DNA of 20,915 bases from a virus. Below, piece by piece: positions 4,102 through 20,915 of the stretch (positions are counted from its first letter, which is position 1; every line of letters starts with the position of its first letter). A program made the position numbers and the translations under genes. The notes below the pieces were generated by a model, which was not told where the DNA came from, ran no database searches, and saw nothing but the letters and a program-made list of their open reading frames with translations. The stretch spans positions 1-20,915 of the IMG/VR virus record IMGVR_UViG_3300043409_000539; one strand, 5' to 3'.

Positions 4102-4296
4102 CTACTCCTTATGAACAACCTTTCCTGTCAATGCTATCTTCTCATCTCTTGATTTTAAATATTGTATGAATTCAACCGCCACATTAATTGAGTGAAATCC
4201 ATTTAGGTTAGCCTGATGCCATGGAGTCATAAACCTATTCTTAACCTCAACAAAATAGTCATCATTTGAACCTGTAACAACCCTATACTTTTTCAT
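4102..4296 (-). CDS. Hypothetical 64-aa protein, last gene of minus-strand cassette
   Basis: I do not recognise this family. It is a small soluble protein with mixed charge, starting MKKYRVV, with alternating hydrophobic residues in the first half that suggest beta strands and a helix-like segment INVAVEFIQYLKS around residues 37-50. The ATG is preceded by AAGGTGAT at a good distance, and the start lies 15 bases after the stop of the 224-aa gene, so it is the last member of the same operon. The gene is noticeably more AT-rich than the flanking late genes, which fits recent acquisition. It is immediately followed by the terminator. Confidence 0.7.
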   Translation of the reverse strand: MKKYRVVTGSNDDYFVEVKNRFMTPWHQANLNGFHSINVAVEFIQYLKSRDEKIALTGKVVHKE

Positions 4297-4311
4297 GCTA
4301 TCACCTTGTTG

Positions 4312-4986
4312 TTATGGGCGGCGGATGAAGCGCCACGGCCTCCTTACATTAACCCACCTATCGCATGATTCCCCATACTTTACAGAAAAGGCATAATCAC
4401 TAGCATATGAAGCGTCCTCCATCTGGCTTACGGGCCACCCACCTTGATCATTGTGGTCGTATGCATCAACCCATACAATATCCCCAACCCGCAAATCCCG
4501 CCAATCTTTAATCGCCAGCTCCGGCTCTTGCTTTGCGGTGATTGGCGATACCTTCAGGCCAATCGCCTCACAAGCTAGATCAAGCGCTTTCAGCTTGGCG
4601 TCCGCATCAGATTTCGCGGCATCCGCCTCTTGCTGCTTGCGCTCGGCGCAGTCCTTGGCGTTGCGGTAGTCTGATGCTAGTTGTTCGATGGTAGGCTTGG
4701 CTTCTACTACCGGCTCCAGTGCGGTGTCGGAGCCCGGGTACAGGTGGGAATACTCGTCACGCGAGAGGATGGTCTGGTTCCATCCGCGAATAGTAGTACA
4801 AGAACGCAGACCTTCTGCGGAGCCCGCAGCCGTCCAAACCTCACGACCTACACCAATACTAGGCTTCGTATCATACGCAAACACATCGCCGTCCTTGTCT
4901 TGGGCCGCGAAACTGAAACCATCACGCCAGCCCCCATTCTCGCTTATGATGCGGGCCAGTTCTTGCTTTGATTTGCTGATTTTCAT
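4312..4986 (-). CDS. Hypothetical 224-aa protein with central coiled coil
   Basis: No function is recognised. Three parts can be seen. The N-terminal ~95 residues are a mixed domain containing repeated aromatic and DKDGDV-type acidic turns. A central helical coiled coil at ~98-145 is rich in Ala, Asp, Glu and Lys. The C-terminal ~65-residue domain begins DWRDLRVGDIVWVDAY and ends WRFIRRP, looking like a small beta-barrel. The 'RVGDIVWVDAY' style is familiar from phage proteins of unknown function. There is no signal peptide or membrane segment. The ATG overlaps the TGA of the upstream 55-aa gene (ATGA), indicating coupled translation. The gene is part of the reverse-oriented cassette, not the late operon, so a structural role is not implied. 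Confidence 0.75.
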   Translation of the reverse strand: MKISKSKQELARIISENGGWRDGFSFAAQDKDGDVFAYDTKPSIGVGREVWTAAGSAEGLRSCTTIRGWNQTILSRDEYSHLYPGSDTALEPVVEAKPTIEQLASDYRNAKDCAERKQQEADAAKSDADAKLKALDLACEAIGLKVSPITAKQEPELAIKDWRDLRVGDIVWVDAYDHNDQGGWPVSQMEDASYASDYAFSVKYGESCDRWVNVRRPWRFIRRP

Positions 4987-5150
4987 TTCTTAACCTCAAC
5001 GCATTTGTGCCAATCATATTTCGGTAGTTTGCTGATGGCATCCCCAGCCTGCATGCACGATTGGTAAGATGTGAAACCATCAACCGCTGCTGGTCCGCCT
5101 GTCTGCCCCATTCCGACGCTCATATAAAAAATCAAAACCCAAGTTGTCAT
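4983..5150 (-). CDS. Small membrane-anchored or exported protein, 55 aa, two cysteines
   Basis: A short gene starting at ATG 5150, with AGGAG eight bases upstream. The protein begins MTTWVLIFYMSVGMG, a short hydrophobic N-terminus that could be a membrane anchor or signal segment. A polar tail follows with two cysteines (Cys32 and Cys50) flanking a helix-like stretch, suggesting a periplasmic disulfide. Similar small phage proteins with a hydrophobic start and a GF(T/S)S..SC pattern are familiar, but I know no assigned function. It overlaps the zinc-finger gene upstream and the 224-aa gene downstream by 4 bases each (ATGA), strong evidence that it is a real operon member. Superinfection exclusion or envelope modification is speculation from topology alone. 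Confidence 0.7.
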   Translation of the reverse strand: MTTWVLIFYMSVGMGQTGGPAAVDGFTSYQSCMQAGDAISKLPKYDWHKCVEVKK

Positions 5151-5275
5151 TTCTCACTCTCCTGCTTTTTGCTATCTCGAAACTTCTTCTGCCTGCACCT
5201 GTCAGAGCAGTATTTGGCATTACTCTGCATCCTCTGCGTCTTTCCGCAGACTGGGCAGGTTAGGTCTTGTGGCAT
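5147..5275 (-). CDS. Zinc-finger microprotein, 42 aa
   Basis: A very short gene with clear support: ATG 5275 is preceded by GGAG five bases upstream. Its stop overlaps the next start as ATGA, and its beginning overlaps the end of the upstream gene by 16 bases. The protein has CPVCG at residues 7-11 and YCSDRC at 22-27 (Cys7, Cys10, Cys23, Cys27), a C-x2-C...C-x3-C arrangement that should bind one zinc ion. A strongly basic tail follows (RQKKFRDSKK). This layout is common in small phage and bacterial zinc-ribbon or treble-clef-like proteins. The basic tail suggests nucleic-acid or protein binding; the target is unknown. Confidence 0.75.
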   Translation of the reverse strand: MPQDLTCPVCGKTQRMQSNAKYCSDRCRQKKFRDSKKQESEK

Positions 5276-5568
5276 GTGCGCTCCAGTTCGGCGAGGAGGG
5301 CGTCTGCGTATGTGGTGCGCCAAGCAAAGTACATGGCCGCACTTCCAGTTGCGGTAATTTCCACTAGGCGGCTGCGACCATCGTGGAGTGGAATAAAAAA
5401 CATTCCGTTTGATTTATTCTCATCACGCCACTTGAAGCTAAACCAATCAGGCACTTCAGGCGCATGCATCGCCATCATCTCGCGCTTGGTTAGGCCGCTC
5501 CACCATCTGCTACTTTGTGTCTCATCTACAACCTCAAGCGGCATAGCTGGCATATCTGCATTCTTCAT
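5260..5568 (-). CDS. Hypothetical phage protein with GLTKRE motif, 102 aa
   Basis: The protein contains GLTKREMMAMHAP around residues 25-37, a motif resembling the GLTKREYFA/GMTLRDYFA signature seen in many small phage accessory proteins of unknown function. It ends with a segment WRTTYADALLAELE that also recurs in that group. Between these lies a beta-rich part with several tryptophans and phenylalanines. I chose ATG 5568, eight bases after a GGAG; a GTG at 5571 directly in front would add one residue. Such genes usually sit in early or accessory regions, so finding one inside the morphogenesis cluster supports the view that this cassette was inserted. The function is unknown. Confidence 0.72.
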   Translation of the reverse strand: MKNADMPAMPLEVVDETQSSRWWSGLTKREMMAMHAPEVPDWFSFKWRDENKSNGMFFIPLHDGRSRLVEITATGSAAMYFAWRTTYADALLAELERTCHKT

Positions 5569-5590
5569 CACTTCATCTCCGCGTTGTTGG

Positions 5591-5803
5591 TTATAGGTTC
5601 GATATCATGCGATCAATGCACTCGTCTTCAATCGCCGAGTTTCCCGATGCAAGGTTGAGCGCCTCCGTGATCTCCTCATCTGTCATATAGAACACCGACA
5701 GCAACTCAATGATTGCGTGCTCAGCTATCGTGAAATCACTTTCCTCCCTGCACATCATGAGGGTGCTCTTTATTGCTTCTGATGCTGGAACTACAAAACT
5801 CAT
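5591..5803 (-). CDS. Hypothetical 70-aa protein, first gene of minus-strand cassette
   Basis: A small acidic, mostly helical protein with methionine- and isoleucine-rich helices and three acidic clusters; no family is recognised. The ATG at 5803 is preceded by GGGGGAT seven to eight bases upstream. It is the promoter-proximal gene of the reverse cassette, with a sigma70-like promoter 30-57 bases before its start codon. The 22-base gap to the next gene carries that gene's ribosome binding site. Small acidic phage proteins often act by binding a host protein, but nothing here shows which. There are no cysteines in a metal-binding pattern and no membrane segment. Confidence 0.7.
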   Translation of the reverse strand: MSFVVPASEAIKSTLMMCREESDFTIAEHAIIELLSVFYMTDEEITEALNLASGNSAIEDECIDRMISNL

Positions 5804-6876: not shown

Positions 6877-8181
6877 ATGGCTAACAACCTTGACAGTAAC
6901 GTAACAAACAAGCTGATGCGGGCTTTCATCCCAGCATTTGACTCTCAGCGCAAAGTATCAAAGCTAATCTCAACTAACGCACAAAACCTTGTTGAAGGGT
7001 TTGACGAAACAACCGGTGATTCCTACGGCGCCGTGCGCATGAAGCGACCGCTGCAGTTCGTTCCTCAGCGCACCCCTGATGGTGACTTCACCAGCATGAG
7101 CCTTAACCCCGTGAAGGTTGGCTCTGTGCCCGCCGAGGTTGGTCAGTATTGCACTGTGTTCGTTGAGATGACCGACATTGAGCGAGCGCTCAAGTCTGCT
7201 GACGTGGCAGAGGAAATGACCAAGCTGGTCGCTCCTGCCGCCGAGGATATGTGCAACACTATCGAGTCTGAGCTTACATCTCGCATGATGAAGGCTGCCG
7301 CAAACACGTCAGGCTCCCCCACCCAAGCAATCGCTAAGTGGCAGGATATTGCGCAAGCTGGCACCATGCTGAAAGCAATTGGCCTCCCAAGCTCTGGCAA
7401 GCGATACTGCGTAATCAATGACTTCGACTCCCTGGCGCTGGCTGGCGAGCAGAAGGGGTTGGCCGTAAACCCAGAGGTTGGAGCCGCCCTCCGCGATGCT
7501 GCCATTGCATCAAGCTACGCAGGTTTCGATACCGTACTAACAAGTGACAACATGCCGTCCTTCACGGCTGGTACCATCAAGACCGGCATCACCGTCAAGT
7601 CTGCTCCAGTTCAGACATATGACGCCTGCAAGGATTCGTATCAGCAAACACTGGTGCTTACTGCTACTGGTTCAGTAGGTAAGACGCTCGTTGCTGGCAC
7701 CACCCTTGTAATTCAGGGCATCAACCGAGTTCACCTTCGCAACCATAACCCCATTCGAGGCGTTGGCGGCCTGTTTATCCCGCTTACTGTGTCAGTCCTT
7801 GAGACCGCAACTTTTGATTCCAACGGAGATGCCAACGTCAAGGTTTCTGGCTGTTCAATCTTTGAAGCTGGCGTTAATGGCGCATATAACACCGTTGCAT
7901 CCGCGATCGTTGCTGGCGCAGTTGTGGTTATTAGCGAGAACATTAGTACCGCTTACGCTCCTGGCTTGGCATTCCATGAAGCATTCTTCGGCATGGGCTC
8001 CATCAAATTGAAGAAGCTGGATGCTACCGACACATCATTCACCTCCATGGACGGTCTGAACTTCCGCGTTTCTCGCGGTAGCGATATCATCGGCAACAAG
8101 CACAAGATCCGCATCGACTTCCGCCCAACCTTCGCATGCCTGAACCCGTTCTTTGGGGAAAAGGTATACGGCAACGTGTAA
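6877..8181 (+). CDS. 5: Major coat protein, P22 gp5-like
   Basis: This 434-aa protein (P22 gp5 has 430) forms the icosahedral shell. Its position after scaffold is standard. The region YAGFDTVLTSDNMPS (residues ~213-227) followed by TGITVKS matches the style of the P22 coat just before its inserted beta-barrel (I) domain. The stretch ~235-330, with alternating strands, should be that domain, which stabilises the subunit during folding. The N-terminal ~90 residues contain the loop region, and an AAEDMCNTIESELTSRMM helix (~127-144) resembles the long spine helix of the HK97 fold. GGAG lies nine bases before the ATG. Coat and scaffold probably share one transcript; a hairpin follows the stop. 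Confidence 0.93.
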   Translation: MANNLDSNVTNKLMRAFIPAFDSQRKVSKLISTNAQNLVEGFDETTGDSYGAVRMKRPLQFVPQRTPDGDFTSMSLNPVKVGSVPAEVGQYCTVFVEMTDIERALKSADVAEEMTKLVAPAAEDMCNTIESELTSRMMKAAANTSGSPTQAIAKWQDIAQAGTMLKAIGLPSSGKRYCVINDFDSLALAGEQKGLAVNPEVGAALRDAAIASSYAGFDTVLTSDNMPSFTAGTIKTGITVKSAPVQTYDACKDSYQQTLVLTATGSVGKTLVAGTTLVIQGINRVHLRNHNPIRGVGGLFIPLTVSVLETATFDSNGDANVKVSGCSIFEAGVNGAYNTVASAIVAGAVVVISENISTAYAPGLAFHEAFFGMGSIKLKKLDATDTSFTSMDGLNFRVSRGSDIIGNKHKIRIDFRPTFACLNPFFGEKVYGNV

Positions 8182-8186
8182 AAGTT

Positions 8187-8204
8187 ATGGGGCTTCGGCC
8201 CCAT
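8187..8204 (+). terminator. Hairpin with UUCG loop after the coat gene
   Basis: A 7-bp stem ATGGGGC/GCCCCAT closes a TTCG tetraloop, an unusually stable RNA hairpin. The following TTAATTAAG is not a proper T-tract, so it is more likely a partial terminator or an RNA-stability element that favours coat mRNA over downstream messages. Confidence 0.5.
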
Positions 8205-8221
8205 TAATTAAGGGGGATAGC

Positions 8222-8515
8222 ATGGTTTTTGTTTACAAGTGCGGCGGAGATTGGGAGCTAAGTGGTGTGCCATACACGGTTGATTTCGTTGGCATCTCAG
8301 AATCAAAGAAGATGCTTAAAAATGGATGGCATCTGTCGCTTGATGAGGCACTGGCAGTAACGGAGAAAAGTCACATGGCTGACGCTGATGGTGATGGTAA
8401 GCTGTCTCACGAAGAAGCTAAGGCCTATCTTGCAGAGGCTGGCGTGGAGTATGAGGATGGCCTGCACTGGAAGAAAGTGGTGGCTATGGCCGAACAACAC
8501 ATGAAAGGTGAGTGA
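8222..8515 (+). CDS. Small phage protein with EF-hand-type calcium-binding loop, 97 aa
   Basis: The start is ATG 8222 with AGGGGGAT just upstream; the open frame extends further but runs back into coat. The N-terminal ~45 residues (VYKCGG...VPYTV...GWHLSLDEAL) resemble small proteins commonly found beside head genes of tailed phages, function unknown. Residues 54-65 (DADGDGKLSHEE) fit the 12-residue EF-hand loop exactly: acidic at 1, 3, 5 and 12, glycine at 6, hydrophobic at 8. Helix-like segments lie on both sides. The C-terminus (EEAKAYLAEAGVEYEDG...) also recalls the small HeH/LEM-like helical domains at the end of such phage proteins, so the loop could be part of that domain. A capsid decoration or head-completion role is a guess from position. 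Confidence 0.78.
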   Translation: MVFVYKCGGDWELSGVPYTVDFVGISESKKMLKNGWHLSLDEALAVTEKSHMADADGDGKLSHEEAKAYLAEAGVEYEDGLHWKKVVAMAEQHMKGE

Positions 8516-9419: not shown

Positions 9420-11372
9420 ATGACAAGAATTTCAGACCTTAACAGGAATCAGGATTTGACAGATGGGGATGTCTTCCCTATCGGAACTGCTGATGGTTCA
9501 ACCCGTGGCATAACCGCCGCTGATTCCGCAAGGTATTTCTCCGCAAAGACAGAGGAAGACATAGCGCCACTTATTGATGCAGCAACGCAAGCGTCAGCCG
9601 ATGCGACTCAAGCTGCAATAAACGCAGACGCTAGCGCGGATTCTGCATCTGCAAGCGCTGCATCTGCTGCTGGTGCTGTTGATGCTTTGCGTGATGAGCT
9701 TGCGTCAGATGATGGCGTCACTTTGCTTGGGATTGGCAATGGAAGAACTCAGGCAGATAAAAACGCTGAGATAGCAAGCATAAAGGACTGGGACAAAGAT
9801 GCAGGAGCGTACGGTCATTTATGCCATGCAGCCATAGTTGCTGCTGATCAGTGGTGCTTTGAGCGCGGTAGGACGCTGCACTTTCCTGACGGACAATACT
9901 GCATTGGTTTATCGATCATAAAGAAAGCCCGCTGGGCTGGTGCCGGATCCCCTGAACTAGCTCCATTCCCGCAAAATGATGATGACAAAATATATCTGCG
10001 CCCTGGCTATAAGGGCAAGCTTCCGGGAACCAGCATAATTTTGATGGCTGGCTCTACACTGTCTAGTGTCAGTACAGTTCGCAGTGACATGTTCAGCAGC
10101 ATGACTTACGCAGTGAAAACACTCCCTCAGTACCCAGCTAACATGGATGGCATAGCCATCGTCATGGATATGGACGTATATGACGCTGGCGGGTCCCTAA
10201 CCACTCCATCCACTGATAACCGCGCTGAGTGTGACGTCGGTTTGCTTATAGATGACTCCAGCGCCAGCGATTTCCCCAACCTCGCAGTCTTCGGTTACTG
10301 GAACAAGGCGGGTGTAGCTATCTGGTCTCATGGTGTCGGCGACAATCCTGACTACACAAAATTTGGCTTTGGCAGCACCATGGGGTATTACGGTCTGGCG
10401 CTGATTGGCAACGATAATGCGGCGGGAGCAGGCCCAGGATTATCTGGAACTCAGTGCCTGGGATTTCAGTTGTTTGCTAATGATCATCACAGCAGACAGC
10501 CTCAGCCTCTGCGCCCAGGTCAAACAAACGCTTATGGACACTTGATTTTTATTGACGGAAACACTGGCGCAGCAGACACAGATTTAAATGGTCATGAGTT
10601 CATAGCTGGGGGGTGGAGGACTTACTCAAGCAAGCCGGTAGTTCTGGATAATTGTTCAAACCTTCACTTAGTGAATGTGCCATTTGAGTTTTCAACAATA
10701 GGAGGCCAGCCAGACACGGGGAACCATAAGTTTCTCGGAACTTCGCAAACCAGAAACGTCCACATTATGAATAGCAGGAACTGCACGTATTCTTTGTGGG
10801 ATCATGCTGATTTTGGAGATGTTGTCGAAAAGTTGATGATCACCAATCCATTTTTTGGTGATATCGTAGTTGGCAGCAAGGGTGCATATCTTAGAATGAT
10901 GGCGACTGGTGGCGGTGAGGATCCTCGCATCCAGTTTACTAGGAATGTCGCATCCAGTGAGGATGGATTCTCTCTGCGCATGGATGTTTCAGATTCTGAT
11001 GCGCTTGCCATATCTCTAGGCGGTTCGGCTGTGGCAAGAATTGACCCATCCACTGGATGCGTGGCATTCAAGAGAACCGCGCTATGGCCGGTAGGGGCTG
11101 CACTCGTGGTTTCTAGCGGCGCTATAACCATATCACAGAACGCACACGTAATAGACGCAACAGGATCGCCATCCATTAGCACAATCAACGGAGGGTCAGA
11201 AGGAGAGGTGGTGCAACTTCAAAAGACAGGATCTGGAACGGTAACTCTCGCTGAGGGTGGAAATATTGTAACCCCAGGAGCTAGCATATCACTAACAGCA
11301 AATAGCGACATTGTAATGATCGTAAAGCGCGGCAGTAACTGGCTTGTTCAATCTTTCAGTGATAACGCATAG
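9420..11372 (+). CDS. Tail fibre / tailspike-like protein with beta-helix
   Basis: This 650-aa protein begins with TRISDLNRNQDLTDGDVF, the short N-terminal domain shared by many phage tail fibres. An Ala/Ser/Asp-rich helical stalk spans ~54-90. Then comes GRTLHFPDGQYCI (~150-162), typical of the entry into a right-handed parallel beta-helix (pectate-lyase-like) found in polysaccharide-binding or -cleaving spikes. The middle ~220-490 has repeating short strands with Asn and Gly turns. The C-terminal ~90 residues (GGSEGEVVQLQ...RGSNWLVQSF) match the small beta domain that closes many such fibres. An excellent ribosome site (AAAGGAGG) precedes the ATG. P22 has no gene here, so this is probably an extra receptor-binding or depolymerising component. 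Active-site residues cannot be assigned by eye. Confidence 0.82.
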   Translation: MTRISDLNRNQDLTDGDVFPIGTADGSTRGITAADSARYFSAKTEEDIAPLIDAATQASADATQAAINADASADSASASAASAAGAVDALRDELASDDGVTLLGIGNGRTQADKNAEIASIKDWDKDAGAYGHLCHAAIVAADQWCFERGRTLHFPDGQYCIGLSIIKKARWAGAGSPELAPFPQNDDDKIYLRPGYKGKLPGTSIILMAGSTLSSVSTVRSDMFSSMTYAVKTLPQYPANMDGIAIVMDMDVYDAGGSLTTPSTDNRAECDVGLLIDDSSASDFPNLAVFGYWNKAGVAIWSHGVGDNPDYTKFGFGSTMGYYGLALIGNDNAAGAGPGLSGTQCLGFQLFANDHHSRQPQPLRPGQTNAYGHLIFIDGNTGAADTDLNGHEFIAGGWRTYSSKPVVLDNCSNLHLVNVPFEFSTIGGQPDTGNHKFLGTSQTRNVHIMNSRNCTYSLWDHADFGDVVEKLMITNPFFGDIVVGSKGAYLRMMATGGGEDPRIQFTRNVASSEDGFSLRMDVSDSDALAISLGGSAVARIDPSTGCVAFKRTALWPVGAALVVSSGAITISQNAHVIDATGSPSISTINGGSEGEVVQLQKTGSGTVTLAEGGNIVTPGASISLTANSDIVMIVKRGSNWLVQSFSDNA

Positions 11373-12353: not shown

Positions 12354-14132
12354 ATGCCGGAAATTCAGATCCCACTTGTCAAAGGTCAGGGTAAGTCGCC
12401 AAAGAATGCCGACTACGTTGACCTACTGCCAACCAACATTGTCCCCATCATCGGAGAGGCTGAGGGGGCGGCTGGTTATTTCCGATTCTGGCCTGGGATA
12501 ATCAAGGTTTCCGATGTCGCAGGGGTTAGCCGTGGCAGCCACTGGAACACCGTAAAGAATGCCGTCTATCGCGTGATGGGCGGCAAGCTCTATCTTGGGC
12601 ATGCTGAAGTTGGCGATGTGGCTGGCTCTGGCAGGGTATCAATGGCTCACGGGCGCACATCTCAGGCTGTTGTTGTGAATGGACAGCTAAAGCTATATCG
12701 GTACGATGGCGAGATTAAGACGGTAGAGAACTGGCCGGCAAATGAGGTATTTCCTGGCGAGACGAAGACCATCCAGACCACGCAGCACAACAAGGATGGC
12801 GACACGCTAAAGATTACCGCCAGCAATGAGGCTGGAGAGTTGACGCTAACGGTCACTCCAACAAACGGCAATAACAAGTCAGGGGCTCCTCTGTCAATCG
12901 CCGAGAGCGTGTGGAAAGTAGGCGGTTCAGAGTCTCAGTCTGCTCCGGCTGCTGGAACCCCATACATCACCAACCTGAAAGTAAGCGGCACTAAATTCGC
13001 AGGCGCTACCCTTCTCGTTACCTACACATTCAACCCAAATCCGGTAACTCCAGGATCGCCAACAGCAGCAGAAGAGCGGGATATAAGCAAGCTTGTTTGG
13101 GTGCAGGTAACGCAAACAACCACGGTTCCAAATCCGCAATACGACTTTACACCTGTTAGCGATGTATGTCGCATCCGTGGCCGCTACGTGTTCACGCAGG
13201 CTGGTACCGATACATTCTGGCTTACCAGCCTTGAAGACGAGAGCAAGCCAGACCTGACAGCGCCAGCTTACCGCGCTGAGAACATGCCGGATGGCATCCT
13301 TGCTTTGCGCGAGTACCGAGATTTCATCCTGGCGTTTGGATCTGCGACGATAGAGTTTTTCCGCCTGACTGGTGACGCAAACAACCTTGTCCAGTTCGCT
13401 AGCAGCTATATGGTGCCAATCGGGATTGCGGGCCAGTTCTGCCTTGCTGAGTTTGCTGAGTCATTCGCATTCATCACTAGCCCAGCTCGTGGGCAGGTGA
13501 TTGTTGCCGTGATGGGTCAGGGAGTTTACAACCAGATCTCAGACCGCAACACCAACAAGATTTTGGCTGGATACAGTGCTGTCGAGCTTTCCGCATCATT
13601 TGTTGAATCCCTAAAGACTGAGGATAACCAATTCCTAATCCTACACCTGCCTCAGCACACGCTTGTTTACAACGCCACTAGCCAGCTATGGAGCATCATA
13701 AAGACTGGCACTGGCGATGACGTGCACAGGGCTGTTGATTACCGCAACGAGGGAGATGTCGTGACTTGCGGTGATCGCCTATCGCCATTCCTTGGCAGTC
13801 AGGATTTAACAACTTCCGCCCAGTACGGTGAGGATCAAGAAATTATCCTTTACAGCCCGCTGATAGGAATGGAAAAAACCGTGATGTACGACATGCAGAT
13901 CACGGCAAACTCTGGTCTTGCTTCCAACGTGCGCCGCATATTTGTCTCATCAACATCCGATGGCATCAACTACGGAAACGAGGAGGCTATCGAGTTCGAC
14001 GGGACGTGGCAGTGGCTACGTAGAGCTATAAAGCGCAGGGTTGGCCGCATCCGACTGCGCATAGGGTTCAAGCTGCGCATCGTTGGCGCCACTCCATGCA
14101 CACTTTCAAATTTCAGAGCGAGGATTGAGTAA
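12354..14132 (+). CDS. 10: Tail hub protein, P22 gp10-like, with inserted domain
   Basis: gp10 binds the gp4 ring and connects it to the needle and tailspikes. Similarity to P22 gp10 is clear at the start (KGQGKSPKNADYVDLLP, 10-26). It is near-identical at GGKLY...EVGDVAGSGRVSMAHGRTSQAV (76-106), and strong again at RIRGRY...GTDTFWLTSLEDES and in the C-terminal KRRVGRIRLRIGFKLR segment. It is 592 aa long against 472 in P22. The excess is a single block at ~130-262, where P22 has about a dozen residues. The block contains KVSGTKFAGATLLVTYTFNP (~209-228), which looks like an Ig-like strand pair. The ATG lies ten bases after AGGAG. The stop overlaps the next start (TAATG). Confidence 0.93.
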   Translation: MPEIQIPLVKGQGKSPKNADYVDLLPTNIVPIIGEAEGAAGYFRFWPGIIKVSDVAGVSRGSHWNTVKNAVYRVMGGKLYLGHAEVGDVAGSGRVSMAHGRTSQAVVVNGQLKLYRYDGEIKTVENWPANEVFPGETKTIQTTQHNKDGDTLKITASNEAGELTLTVTPTNGNNKSGAPLSIAESVWKVGGSESQSAPAAGTPYITNLKVSGTKFAGATLLVTYTFNPNPVTPGSPTAAEERDISKLVWVQVTQTTTVPNPQYDFTPVSDVCRIRGRYVFTQAGTDTFWLTSLEDESKPDLTAPAYRAENMPDGILALREYRDFILAFGSATIEFFRLTGDANNLVQFASSYMVPIGIAGQFCLAEFAESFAFITSPARGQVIVAVMGQGVYNQISDRNTNKILAGYSAVELSASFVESLKTEDNQFLILHLPQHTLVYNATSQLWSIIKTGTGDDVHRAVDYRNEGDVVTCGDRLSPFLGSQDLTTSAQYGEDQEIILYSPLIGMEKTVMYDMQITANSGLASNVRRIFVSSTSDGINYGNEEAIEFDGTWQWLRRAIKRRVGRIRLRIGFKLRIVGATPCTLSNFRARIE

Positions 14133-14557
14133 TGACTACCATCGCATATCACCACGAAAGAAAAGAGATCGCATACGACGGAAGAACAACTCGCGGCAAC
14201 ACGATCATGAGCGACAGCTCAGAAAAGATGGTTGAGCAAGGTGGTGTGAAATTCTTCTTGTGTGGCGCAACCTGCGACTACGACCTTCTGATTTCTATGT
14301 ACTTTGGTGATAAGCCAGGTCTTGTTCCAGAGGCAAACGCATTTGTTATTGATGGCGGCATTGTTTATAGGATCGGATGCCAAGATGATGGAGTGTTCTG
14401 GAAGTGCAAGCCAGATTGCAATGATGCAATAGGTAGTGGGTGGACTCTGGCTCTGTCTGCAATGGATTTCGGCAAGGGCGCACGTGAAGCGGTTGAGTAC
14501 GCCGCAACGCGAGACACTTGCACTGGCGGGAAAATAACAGTGGTAGGAGTTGAATGA
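14132..14557 (+). CDS. HslV / proteasome beta-like Ntn hydrolase (putative threonine peptidase)
   Basis: This 141-aa protein resembles HslV, the peptidase of the bacterial HslUV protease (~175 aa). After loss of the initiator Met the N-terminus is Thr-Thr-Ile, as in HslV, whose first Thr is the nucleophile. Two positions earlier than in HslV come Asp15-Gly16 (HslV Asp17), GNT at 21-23 and Lys31 (HslV Lys33), the residues that support the catalytic Thr. FLCGATCD mirrors FAGGTAD, and AIGSGWTLALSA mirrors the AIGSGG segment. The missing ~35 residues are mainly central. No HslU-like ATPase is present. The gene overlaps gp10 by one base (TAATG, GAGG upstream) and gp26 by one base, so it is expressed with the tail genes. 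It might process or protect virion proteins; that is inference. Confidence 0.82.
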   Translation: MTTIAYHHERKEIAYDGRTTRGNTIMSDSSEKMVEQGGVKFFLCGATCDYDLLISMYFGDKPGLVPEANAFVIDGGIVYRIGCQDDGVFWKCKPDCNDAIGSGWTLALSAMDFGKGAREAVEYAATRDTCTGGKITVVGVE

Positions 14558-15237
14558 TGGCAGTGGAAAAACCAACACCGGTGAGTGTAGAGGCGCGTCG
14601 TCTTGATGTGTCGATACTTCCTCTTAACTTCAGCATCCCGCTAACTGACTTCTTGGTTGGGCAAAATGACGACCTATCAAACGTAGCAGGGAAAGCAAAC
14701 GATGCCGCCAATGGCGCTTACATTGCGCAGCTAACCAACGATGAACAGGACGCCGTACTTGCTGAGCACACTCAGCAGATACAGGGTCTCGATTTTCGCC
14801 TTATTGCCGCAGAGGCAACGCTCGAAGACCATGAGATTCGCATAACCAGCAATACCGACCGCCTAGATATCGTTGAGCCAAAGGTTAGCGCCCTAGAAGG
14901 TCAGGTTGTTAGTCTTGACAGCAGAATAACCCTTGTGGAGGGCGACTATGTTAGCAAGTCAATTACCACAATGCAGACTCTTGCCAGCCCAATTTCTGTT
15001 GCTACCAGCTACAGCGTTGGCGGGATAAAGGTTGTCGGGGTTCGCAACACTGGTTGGACGGCGGCTGGAGGAACTGTTGTCGCAAACAAGGGCGTTTGGA
15101 ATCCAAACACCTTGGCGGCAGCATCTGCCACCTACTCACAGGCTGAGGCTAACGCAGTAAGGCAACAGCTTAACGCGACAGAGGCTCGCTTAAAAGCCAT
15201 AGAGCAAATGGCCCGAACTCACGGATTAATTAACTAG
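14557..15237 (+). CDS. 26: Tail needle, P22 gp26-like
   Basis: gp26 is a trimeric needle that plugs the tail and penetrates the outer membrane. The N-terminal motif RRLDVSILPLN (14-24) matches the P22 segment that anchors in gp10, and GKANDAANGAYIAQLTNDEQDAV has a direct P22 counterpart. A long coiled coil follows (~60-128) with regular hydrophobic spacing. DYVSK at ~130, then LASPISVATSYSVGG and TGWTAAGG, match the P22 C-terminal part, as does the final RTHGLIN. Length (226 aa against 233) is normal. AGGAG is seven bases before ATG 14557; another ATG at 14554 would be only four away. Coupling to the HslV-like gene is tight. Confidence 0.95.
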   Translation: MAVEKPTPVSVEARRLDVSILPLNFSIPLTDFLVGQNDDLSNVAGKANDAANGAYIAQLTNDEQDAVLAEHTQQIQGLDFRLIAAEATLEDHEIRITSNTDRLDIVEPKVSALEGQVVSLDSRITLVEGDYVSKSITTMQTLASPISVATSYSVGGIKVVGVRNTGWTAAGGTVVANKGVWNPNTLAAASATYSQAEANAVRQQLNATEARLKAIEQMARTHGLIN

Positions 15238-19655: not shown

Positions 19656-20915
19656 ATGGCAGACATTTTAGTAACCAGCCCTTACAGGCCATTCACCATG
19701 CCAAGCCAGTTCAAGGCGGTATTCAATGGGTTCATTTACTGTGGCACGGTTGATGCGGTAGATCCATCAAATTCCCAGGTTCAGGTGTACAAAGTTAACG
19801 AGGATGGCAGTCGCATCCCTGTCGCCCAGCCTCTGCGCACCAATGCTGGAGGCTTCCTTGTTTACAACGGGCAACCAGCCAAGTTTGTCACCGACTCAAA
19901 TCACAGCCTCCTTGTTCGTGACTCGCTAGGCGCTCAGGTTTGGTATGCGCCGAATATGGCATCAGTTGATCCAGACACCATGTATCAACAGATAATTAAT
20001 CACTATCTTTCTGATGTAGGATATCAAGGTATAGGTGACAACATAATAGCAAGGCTTTCCACCCTAAAGGCGAAGTTTGGCGTAGCTGCTTGGGCTCAGG
20101 CCGCAAACTACAAGACATTTCACATAGACATAAATGACACAAAATCATCAACATACAGCATACCAGCGGGTCAGACTGTCATACTTGATGGTGAGGTTGC
20201 TCATAGCGCAAGCTCGACCTGCTTCATGGCTCAAGGGGTCAGTGGGTGGCGCTTGACAGGGAATGGTAGGCTCAACGGAGGTAGCCTTCCTACTTCGCTA
20301 GATGCGCCTCACGTTGGGCTTCTTGTCACAGACTGTTTTGGATTCACGATTGATGGTTCGATAGACATAATCAATTTCAGGAGTAATGGCGCATATTTCG
20401 ACGGCACGTTCGAGGTGTCAGGCCCTGTATCATTCAGCCATGTAAGCGGCCTGCGACTCCATGACAACTGGATCAATCACACTCTATCAAATGGGTTTGC
20501 TGCTGAATATACCACGTTCACCGGATGCTGGAACTATGACGCGATTAGCATTGCCATGGTGGAGCAAACTGGGAATATCAACTACATAGGCGGGGGTGTT
20601 ACACACAGTAAAGGCGTGGGTCTATACTTGCAGCACCCAACATTCGGCGGCAACCCGCATCACGGGATGTTCGTCGGAACTATGTTTAACCACAGCGCTG
20701 GAGCAGGGGTGCTGGCAGAGGGGGTTGCCAACGGAATGCAGTTTATTGGCTGCAACTTCTACCATGGCGGCGCAAGCGATCGTGGACACATATTCCTTAA
20801 CAGCTCCAGAGGAATTAGTTTTGTCGGTGGTATTTTGGCCTGTGACGTGTACTGCAGGGAGAGTGACGGGGACCCGCACTTAGGCTGGAACAGCATTCGC
20901 GGAATGTTCGTTTTA
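19656..20915 (+). CDS. 9: Tailspike with P22 gp9-type head-binding domain (truncated by window end)
   Basis: The frame is open from ATG 19656 through the last base (420 codons, no stop), so the C-terminus is missing. Residues ~1-107 match the P22 gp9 head-binding domain (Pfam PF09008): SQFKAVFNGFIYCGTVD, NEDGSRIPVAQPL, NAGGFLVYNGQPAKFVTD. This trimeric domain attaches spikes to the tail. The body from ~155 on shows the short repeating strands of a right-handed beta-helix (GNGRLNGG, GVGLYL, GVANGMQFIGCNFYHGG), unlike the P22 sequence, as expected for a receptor-specific module that binds or cleaves O-antigen or capsule. Enzyme class and active site cannot be read from sequence by eye. The start lies two bases after the gp16 stop. 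Confidence 0.93.
   Translation, partial: MADILVTSPYRPFTMPSQFKAVFNGFIYCGTVDAVDPSNSQVQVYKVNEDGSRIPVAQPLRTNAGGFLVYNGQPAKFVTDSNHSLLVRDSLGAQVWYAPNMASVDPDTMYQQIINHYLSDVGYQGIGDNIIARLSTLKAKFGVAAWAQAANYKTFHIDINDTKSSTYSIPAGQTVILDGEVAHSASSTCFMAQGVSGWRLTGNGRLNGGSLPTSLDAPHVGLLVTDCFGFTIDGSIDIINFRSNGAYFDGTFEVSGPVSFSHVSGLRLHDNWINHTLSNGFAAEYTTFTGCWNYDAISIAMVEQTGNINYIGGGVTHSKGVGLYLQHPTFGGNPHHGMFVGTMFNHSAGAGVLAEGVANGMQFIGCNFYHGGASDRGHIFLNSSRGISFVGGILACDVYCRESDGDPHLGWNSIRGMFVL

Follow-up and report, generated by a model that had tools for sequence, protein, structure and literature searches.

A proteasome-like gene between gp10 and gp26

The window (the whole stretch of DNA analysed, 20,915 nucleotides) carries a late module in the P22 order, running from terminase through portal, scaffold, coat, gp4, gp10, gp26, gp14, gp7, gp20 and gp16 to the start of a tailspike gene; gp14 and gp16 are so named from where they lie, since the family matches for these two were uninformative. 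Between the homologues of gp10 and gp26 (Table 1) lies an open reading frame for a protein of 141 residues with the N-terminus MTTIAYHH, which a preliminary description of this DNA had presented as an HslV-like threonine peptidase translationally coupled to two tail genes. Overlaps of stop and start codons were indeed found at both junctions. The stop codon of gp10 (TAA, 14130-14132) overlaps the ATG of the inserted gene at 14132, giving TAATG, and the stop codon of the inserted gene (TGA, 14555-14557) overlaps the start of gp26, which is either the ATG at 14554 or the one at 14557 that is conserved in relatives; a Shine-Dalgarno-like TAGGAG for gp26 sits in the last codons of the inserted gene. 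At third codon positions the inserted gene has a GC of 0.48, below the 0.57 of gp10 and close to the values for gp26 and gp16.

Elsewhere in the module, a tailspike-like protein of 650 aa, whose C-terminal part weakly matches a depolymerase, is encoded between gp4 and gp10 (9420-11372), and a P22-type tailspike head-binding start follows gp16 (19656-20915). The gp26 product is shorter than that of a near relative (227 aa against 280 aa in L020:8782-9624), with the N-terminal part kept and a different C-terminal part. Four small genes occupy the minus strand between portal and scaffold (4102-5803), and one of them (5591-5803) matched an anti-restriction family (phrog_14587, 1.6e-10).

Table 1. 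Features of the gp10-gp26 region, in window coordinates
Feature	Position	Strand	Evidence
gp10 homologue (packaged-DNA stabilisation / tail hub, head closure Hc3), flank	12354..14132	+	PF11134 8.3e-146, phrog_578
PPH gene, predicted 141-aa proteasome-beta-fold N-terminal threonine hydrolase (phrog_1040)	14132..14557	+	profiles, AlphaFold2, ORF
425-base cassette, not present where gp10 meets gp26 in three near relatives	14132..14556	+	junction comparison
Thr2 codon (predicted nucleophile, Thr1 of the mature chain, which loss of the initiator Met would expose)	14135..14137	+	invariant in 135 homologues (partly through the start filter)
Asp16 codon (Asp17 equivalent, proteasome numbering)	14177..14179	+	Asp 133/135, Glu 2/135
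Lys32 codon (Lys33 equivalent, proteasome numbering)	14225..14227	+	135/135
Ser102 codon (Ser129 equivalent, GSG motif)	14435..14437	+	128/135
Codons 128-131, Asp-Thr-Cys-Thr (Asp166 and Ser169 equivalents, RDxx(S/T)GG motif)	14513..14524	+	Asp 133/135, Thr/Ser 135/135
gp26 homologue (tail needle), flank	14554..15237	+	phrog_1219 1.2e-61

The active site is complete and conserved

Counting the threonine that follows the initiator methionine as residue 1, the aspartate is at 15, the GNT segment at 21-23 and the lysine at 31 (aspartate 17 and lysine 33 in proteasome numbering), so that each stands two residues early, as had been described. The reported counterparts of the FAGGTAD and AIGSGG segments are also present, as FLCGATCD and AIGSGW. 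The equivalents of Thr1, Asp17, Lys33 and Gly47 are all found in the window protein, and its RDxx(S/T)GG motif aligns with the RDxxSGG of proteasome beta subunits in a profile comparison with the PDB.

Conservation was scored over 135 near-full-length homologues, the window protein included, of which 133 keep the oxyanion-hole glycine (other positions in Table 1). Since only rows beginning with [MVIL]TT[IVL] were kept, the invariance of the threonine is in part a product of this filter. Of the discarded rows, those looked at were truncated or frame-broken or began with an atypical start codon. Because one homologue scan had used an MTTI pattern, loci found through C-terminal motifs alone were counted separately, and threonine, aspartate and lysine were present in all 65 kept copies, which were again rows with a [MVIL]TT[IVL] start. 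Between moderately diverged pairs the median dN/dS was 0.126, indicating purifying selection. The low dN/dS, together with the near-invariant threonine, aspartate and lysine, suggests that the protein is a maintained enzyme. Removal of the initiator methionine is established behaviour of methionine aminopeptidase, and in the window protein it would be expected to expose the threonine.

The protein is a member of the PPH family

A profile built from 92 homologues, with the window protein left out of the build, gave it 192.6 bits (E 4e-58), where the best of 2,000 shuffled sequences reached 8.7 bits; the resemblance is thus not due to chance. The family model phrog_1040 ('peptidase HslV family') matched residues 1-138 (E 2.4e-30), and homologues were present in 64 phage records; most homologues are 136-160 aa long. 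A single-sequence Pfam search of the window protein found nothing and an NCBIfam search only weak proteasome/HslV hints. When a profile of 16 homologues was compared with the PDB, proteasome beta chains were matched over the full length (E 6.9e-12). Two unrelated designed proteins also appeared at 1e-8 to 1e-6, so the argument is not the E-value by itself; it is the full-length alignment, which pairs every catalytic position.

The AlphaFold2 monomer model (pLDDT 97.4, pTM 0.91) has helices only at 47-57, 104-112 and 117-124. The first pair thus consists of a single helix and the second pair is whole, the second helix of the core fold (H2) being absent, and the chain stops two residues past the last strand (136-139). 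There is no propeptide, since MTT starts directly at the threonine, and no C-terminal domain. Foldseek matched the model to proteasome beta, HslV and BPH at probability 1.0, as well as to many predicted phage proteins; human beta5 was found at 3.4e-8 and E. coli HslV (4g4e) with a TM score of 0.73 at 22% identity. Taken together, the alignments and the model make both the fold and the catalytic competence of the window protein well supported and, in our judgement, very probable.

The designation as HslV-like stood as far as it meant the proteasome/HslV fold and the conserved Thr1, Asp and Lys, and the Met-Thr-Thr start is shared as well. It did not stand as membership of HslV proper, which was rejected: the window protein scored 12 bits with the HslV model, whose cut-off is 137, and over 93 diverse members the archaeal proteasome beta model matched 68 and an HslV model 18 (E up to 0.01). 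The window protein is also about 30 residues shorter than HslV and differs from it in having the proteasome-beta form of the motif, RDxx(S/T)GG. The best profile and fold matches were to proteasome beta (archaeal, eukaryotic beta5), with which it shares the RDxxSGG and GSG motifs, and PF00227 matched 62 of the 93 members (E up to 0.1). Unlike proteasome beta, it is a single compact subunit with no propeptide and one helix missing, and no alpha subunit was seen. The phrog_1040 name, which is the usual automatic label for these phage genes, overstates the kinship with HslV; the model also matches in bacterial and archaeal control genomes.

A family with these features has already been described. 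Fuchs, Alva and Lupas (2021, PMC8665760) gave the name PPH to proteins of about 140 residues from phages and their hosts, present also in prophages, that lack helix H2 and a propeptide; they reported that its function was not known, that no genomic context suggested one, and that the new homologues had no HslU partner. The window protein, from a tailed phage, has the same length, the same active-site equivalents, the same missing helix and no propeptide, and no difference from PPH was found in the protein itself. On these features and on phrog_1040, rather than on an alignment to the authors' own PPH set, we assign it to PPH. Another proteasome-like type without H2 is resembled by a 288-aa protein of Vibrio phage 424E50-1 (L019), and the window protein differs in having no C-terminal extension. 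A literature search found no experimental work on PPH after the 2021 description. What is new here is the occurrence of PPH between gp10 and gp26 of a P22-like phage, together with the empty sites, defined to the base, and the slot survey.

Near relatives have an empty site

In three near relatives, Aeromonas phage 4_4512 and two IMG/VR relatives, gp10 is about 88-89% identical to that of the window and is joined directly to gp26, which bears out the earlier view of PPH as an insertion. In Aeromonas phage 4_4512 (gp10 identity 89%) the junction reads ...GCGAGGATTGAGTGATGGCAG... and in the two IMG/VR relatives ...GCGAGGATTGAGTAATGGCAG..., where the window has ...GCGAGGATTGAGTAATGACT...[PPH]...GTTGAATGATGGCAG... 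The window thus differs from these relatives by exactly one cassette of 425 bases, whose presence leaves both translational couplings intact. Searches for PPH found none in Aeromonas phage 4_4512, Shewanella ZP9, Proteus Brookers or the two IMG/VR relatives; PF00227 and phrog_1040 gave no match in 4_4512 or the first IMG/VR relative, whereas both models did match in E. coli and other controls. Gain of PPH in the window lineage is the simplest reading of the junctions, the alternative being loss in the relatives.

PPH occupies many different slots in other phages

About 110 non-redundant PPH loci in other phages fell into 12 slot classes, including nin/terminase, portal/head morphogenesis, head-tail connectors, lysis and replication, the labels being coarse and derived from about 55 hand-picked reference proteins. 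On the PPH tree, a quick one with many open forks, 45 slot changes were required. The nearest kin of the window PPH adjoin replication genes (DnaD/DnaB, NinB/NinG), as in Shewanella phage 3/49, where PPH lies beside NinG and DnaD/DnaB. It precedes the terminase in Medea1 and phiAH14a, lies between portal and head morphogenesis in BUCT006 and 1.197.A and between head adaptor and head closure in 1.085.O (Ad1-PPH-Hc1), is found among lysis genes in HHBS14_1 and is near helicase and DprA in KPP10 and PAK_P3. Other contigs with P22-like proteins carry it before gp4 (L039), upstream of the coat gene (L052) or before the portal (L043). Most labelled loci are near the late/structural region or its border, and some clades hold one slot (nin|ter), so that part of the family appears to be inherited in place. 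No partner gene recurs across the family among the neighbours of the roughly 110 loci. Searches of plasmids and with a defence library gave no match, and two narrow-pattern scans of bacterial genome contigs yielded no confirmed relative, a result that does not imply absence from prophages.

Some copies are decayed. Frameshifts or internal deletions were seen at L083:5935-6402 and about 7920-8417, L091:6190-6580 and L123:7990-8430, and a single in-frame TAG at L170:2945-3385; the broken copies are second or lone PPH copies. Such decay would be expected of dispensable cargo.

Possible roles of PPH

The preliminary description had inferred a virion-associated or tail-assembly role from the position of the gene. 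In such a role PPH would be an assembly-time or virion-associated peptidase, or a tail ring, that cuts gp10, gp26 or ejection proteins or is associated with them, and both the translational coupling to gp10 and gp26 and the presence of PPH inside head/connector operons elsewhere (Ad1-PPH-Hc1; portal-PPH-head morphogenesis) are in keeping with this. However, near relatives build the gp10/gp26 tail without it, its partners vary by lineage, the closest kin of the window PPH are in replication modules, and elsewhere the family has a wide variety of neighbours. LC-MS/MS of phiAH14a particles (PPH is p58) detected four head proteins and no PPH, which is weak evidence since these particles had no tails and coverage was limited (PMC4936722). 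A tail-specific role was rejected as first choice on the empty sites and slot diversity, and we consider it improbable; the observation of the gene was correct and its position had been over-interpreted. An assembly function common to many phages is possible, given that most labelled loci are near the late/structural region. That PPH is a degenerate, inactive passenger, as the broken copies in four relatives might suggest, is highly improbable, for the copy in the window is unbroken, none of its active-site positions is lost, and the family is under purifying selection.

Two further readings concern what the enzyme would act on or with. PPH might hijack host HslUV, forming mixed rings with HslV or borrowing HslU as an unfoldase and so blocking or redirecting host proteolysis. 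The likely hosts are gammaproteobacteria, which carry HslUV; the fold is that of HslV, and, in line with the preliminary description, neither an AAA+ gene nor hslU was seen among the neighbours of PPH in the window, which is a partial record. The sequence is nevertheless closer to archaeal proteasome beta, and the protein is shorter and lacks the second helix, so hijacking seems improbable. Nor do we think it likely that PPH is a specific Ntn amidohydrolase or a protein ligase rather than a general peptidase: the proteasome-like family does include the ligase connectase and many uncharacterised members (PMC8665760), but the S3/S4 helical insertion that marks connectase is absent from the AlphaFold2 elements, and the peptidase residues are complete.

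Because relatives build the same tail without PPH and its partners differ everywhere, an accessory peptidase is favoured over a tail component. On balance, PPH is probably a roving single-gene cargo, a threonine peptidase without an ATPase that acts in the infected cell and is not part of the tail. The cassette would have entered a P22-like late operon precisely where the gp10 stop and gp26 start codons overlap. The methionine would be removed by host methionine aminopeptidase, and the exposed Thr1 would attack the peptide (amide) bond of a substrate, assisted by the Asp15/Lys31 pair and a Ser101/Asp127/Thr130 network. We infer that the subunits probably form rings and are proteolytic without an ATPase of their own, that PPH is made late owing to its position, and that it acts on a host or phage protein in the infected cell and not in the tail. 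A bolder form of the cargo reading, to which we give only a small chance, is that the family is a self-compartmentalising protease of viruses, exchanged among many unrelated phages as a single-gene weapon and aimed at a host protein, which might be a regulator of defence or stress, or HslUV by way of mixed rings; if true, this would be a virus-owned proteasome serving host takeover.

As a single gene in many slots, PPH has a position that reveals no partners, which indicates why its describers found no telling context, and the survey steers attention from tail biology to PPH substrates in infected cells. In one contig two PPH genes stand in tandem with overlapping ends (L154:4367-4813 and L154:4810-5244); the first lacks the Ser129 and Asp166 equivalents (GAG, RN) and the second retains both, and the pair could be active and inactive subunits of a mixed ring. 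PPH is present in well-studied phages, among them Pseudomonas phage PAK_P3 (gene 143), which makes the role of a viral proteasome homologue directly testable, and RNA-seq of PAK_P3 has been published (PMC4933390). Gene 143 (NC_022970.1 75363-75791) is named 'peptidase HslV family', yet the note in its record says nucleoside kinase superfamily.
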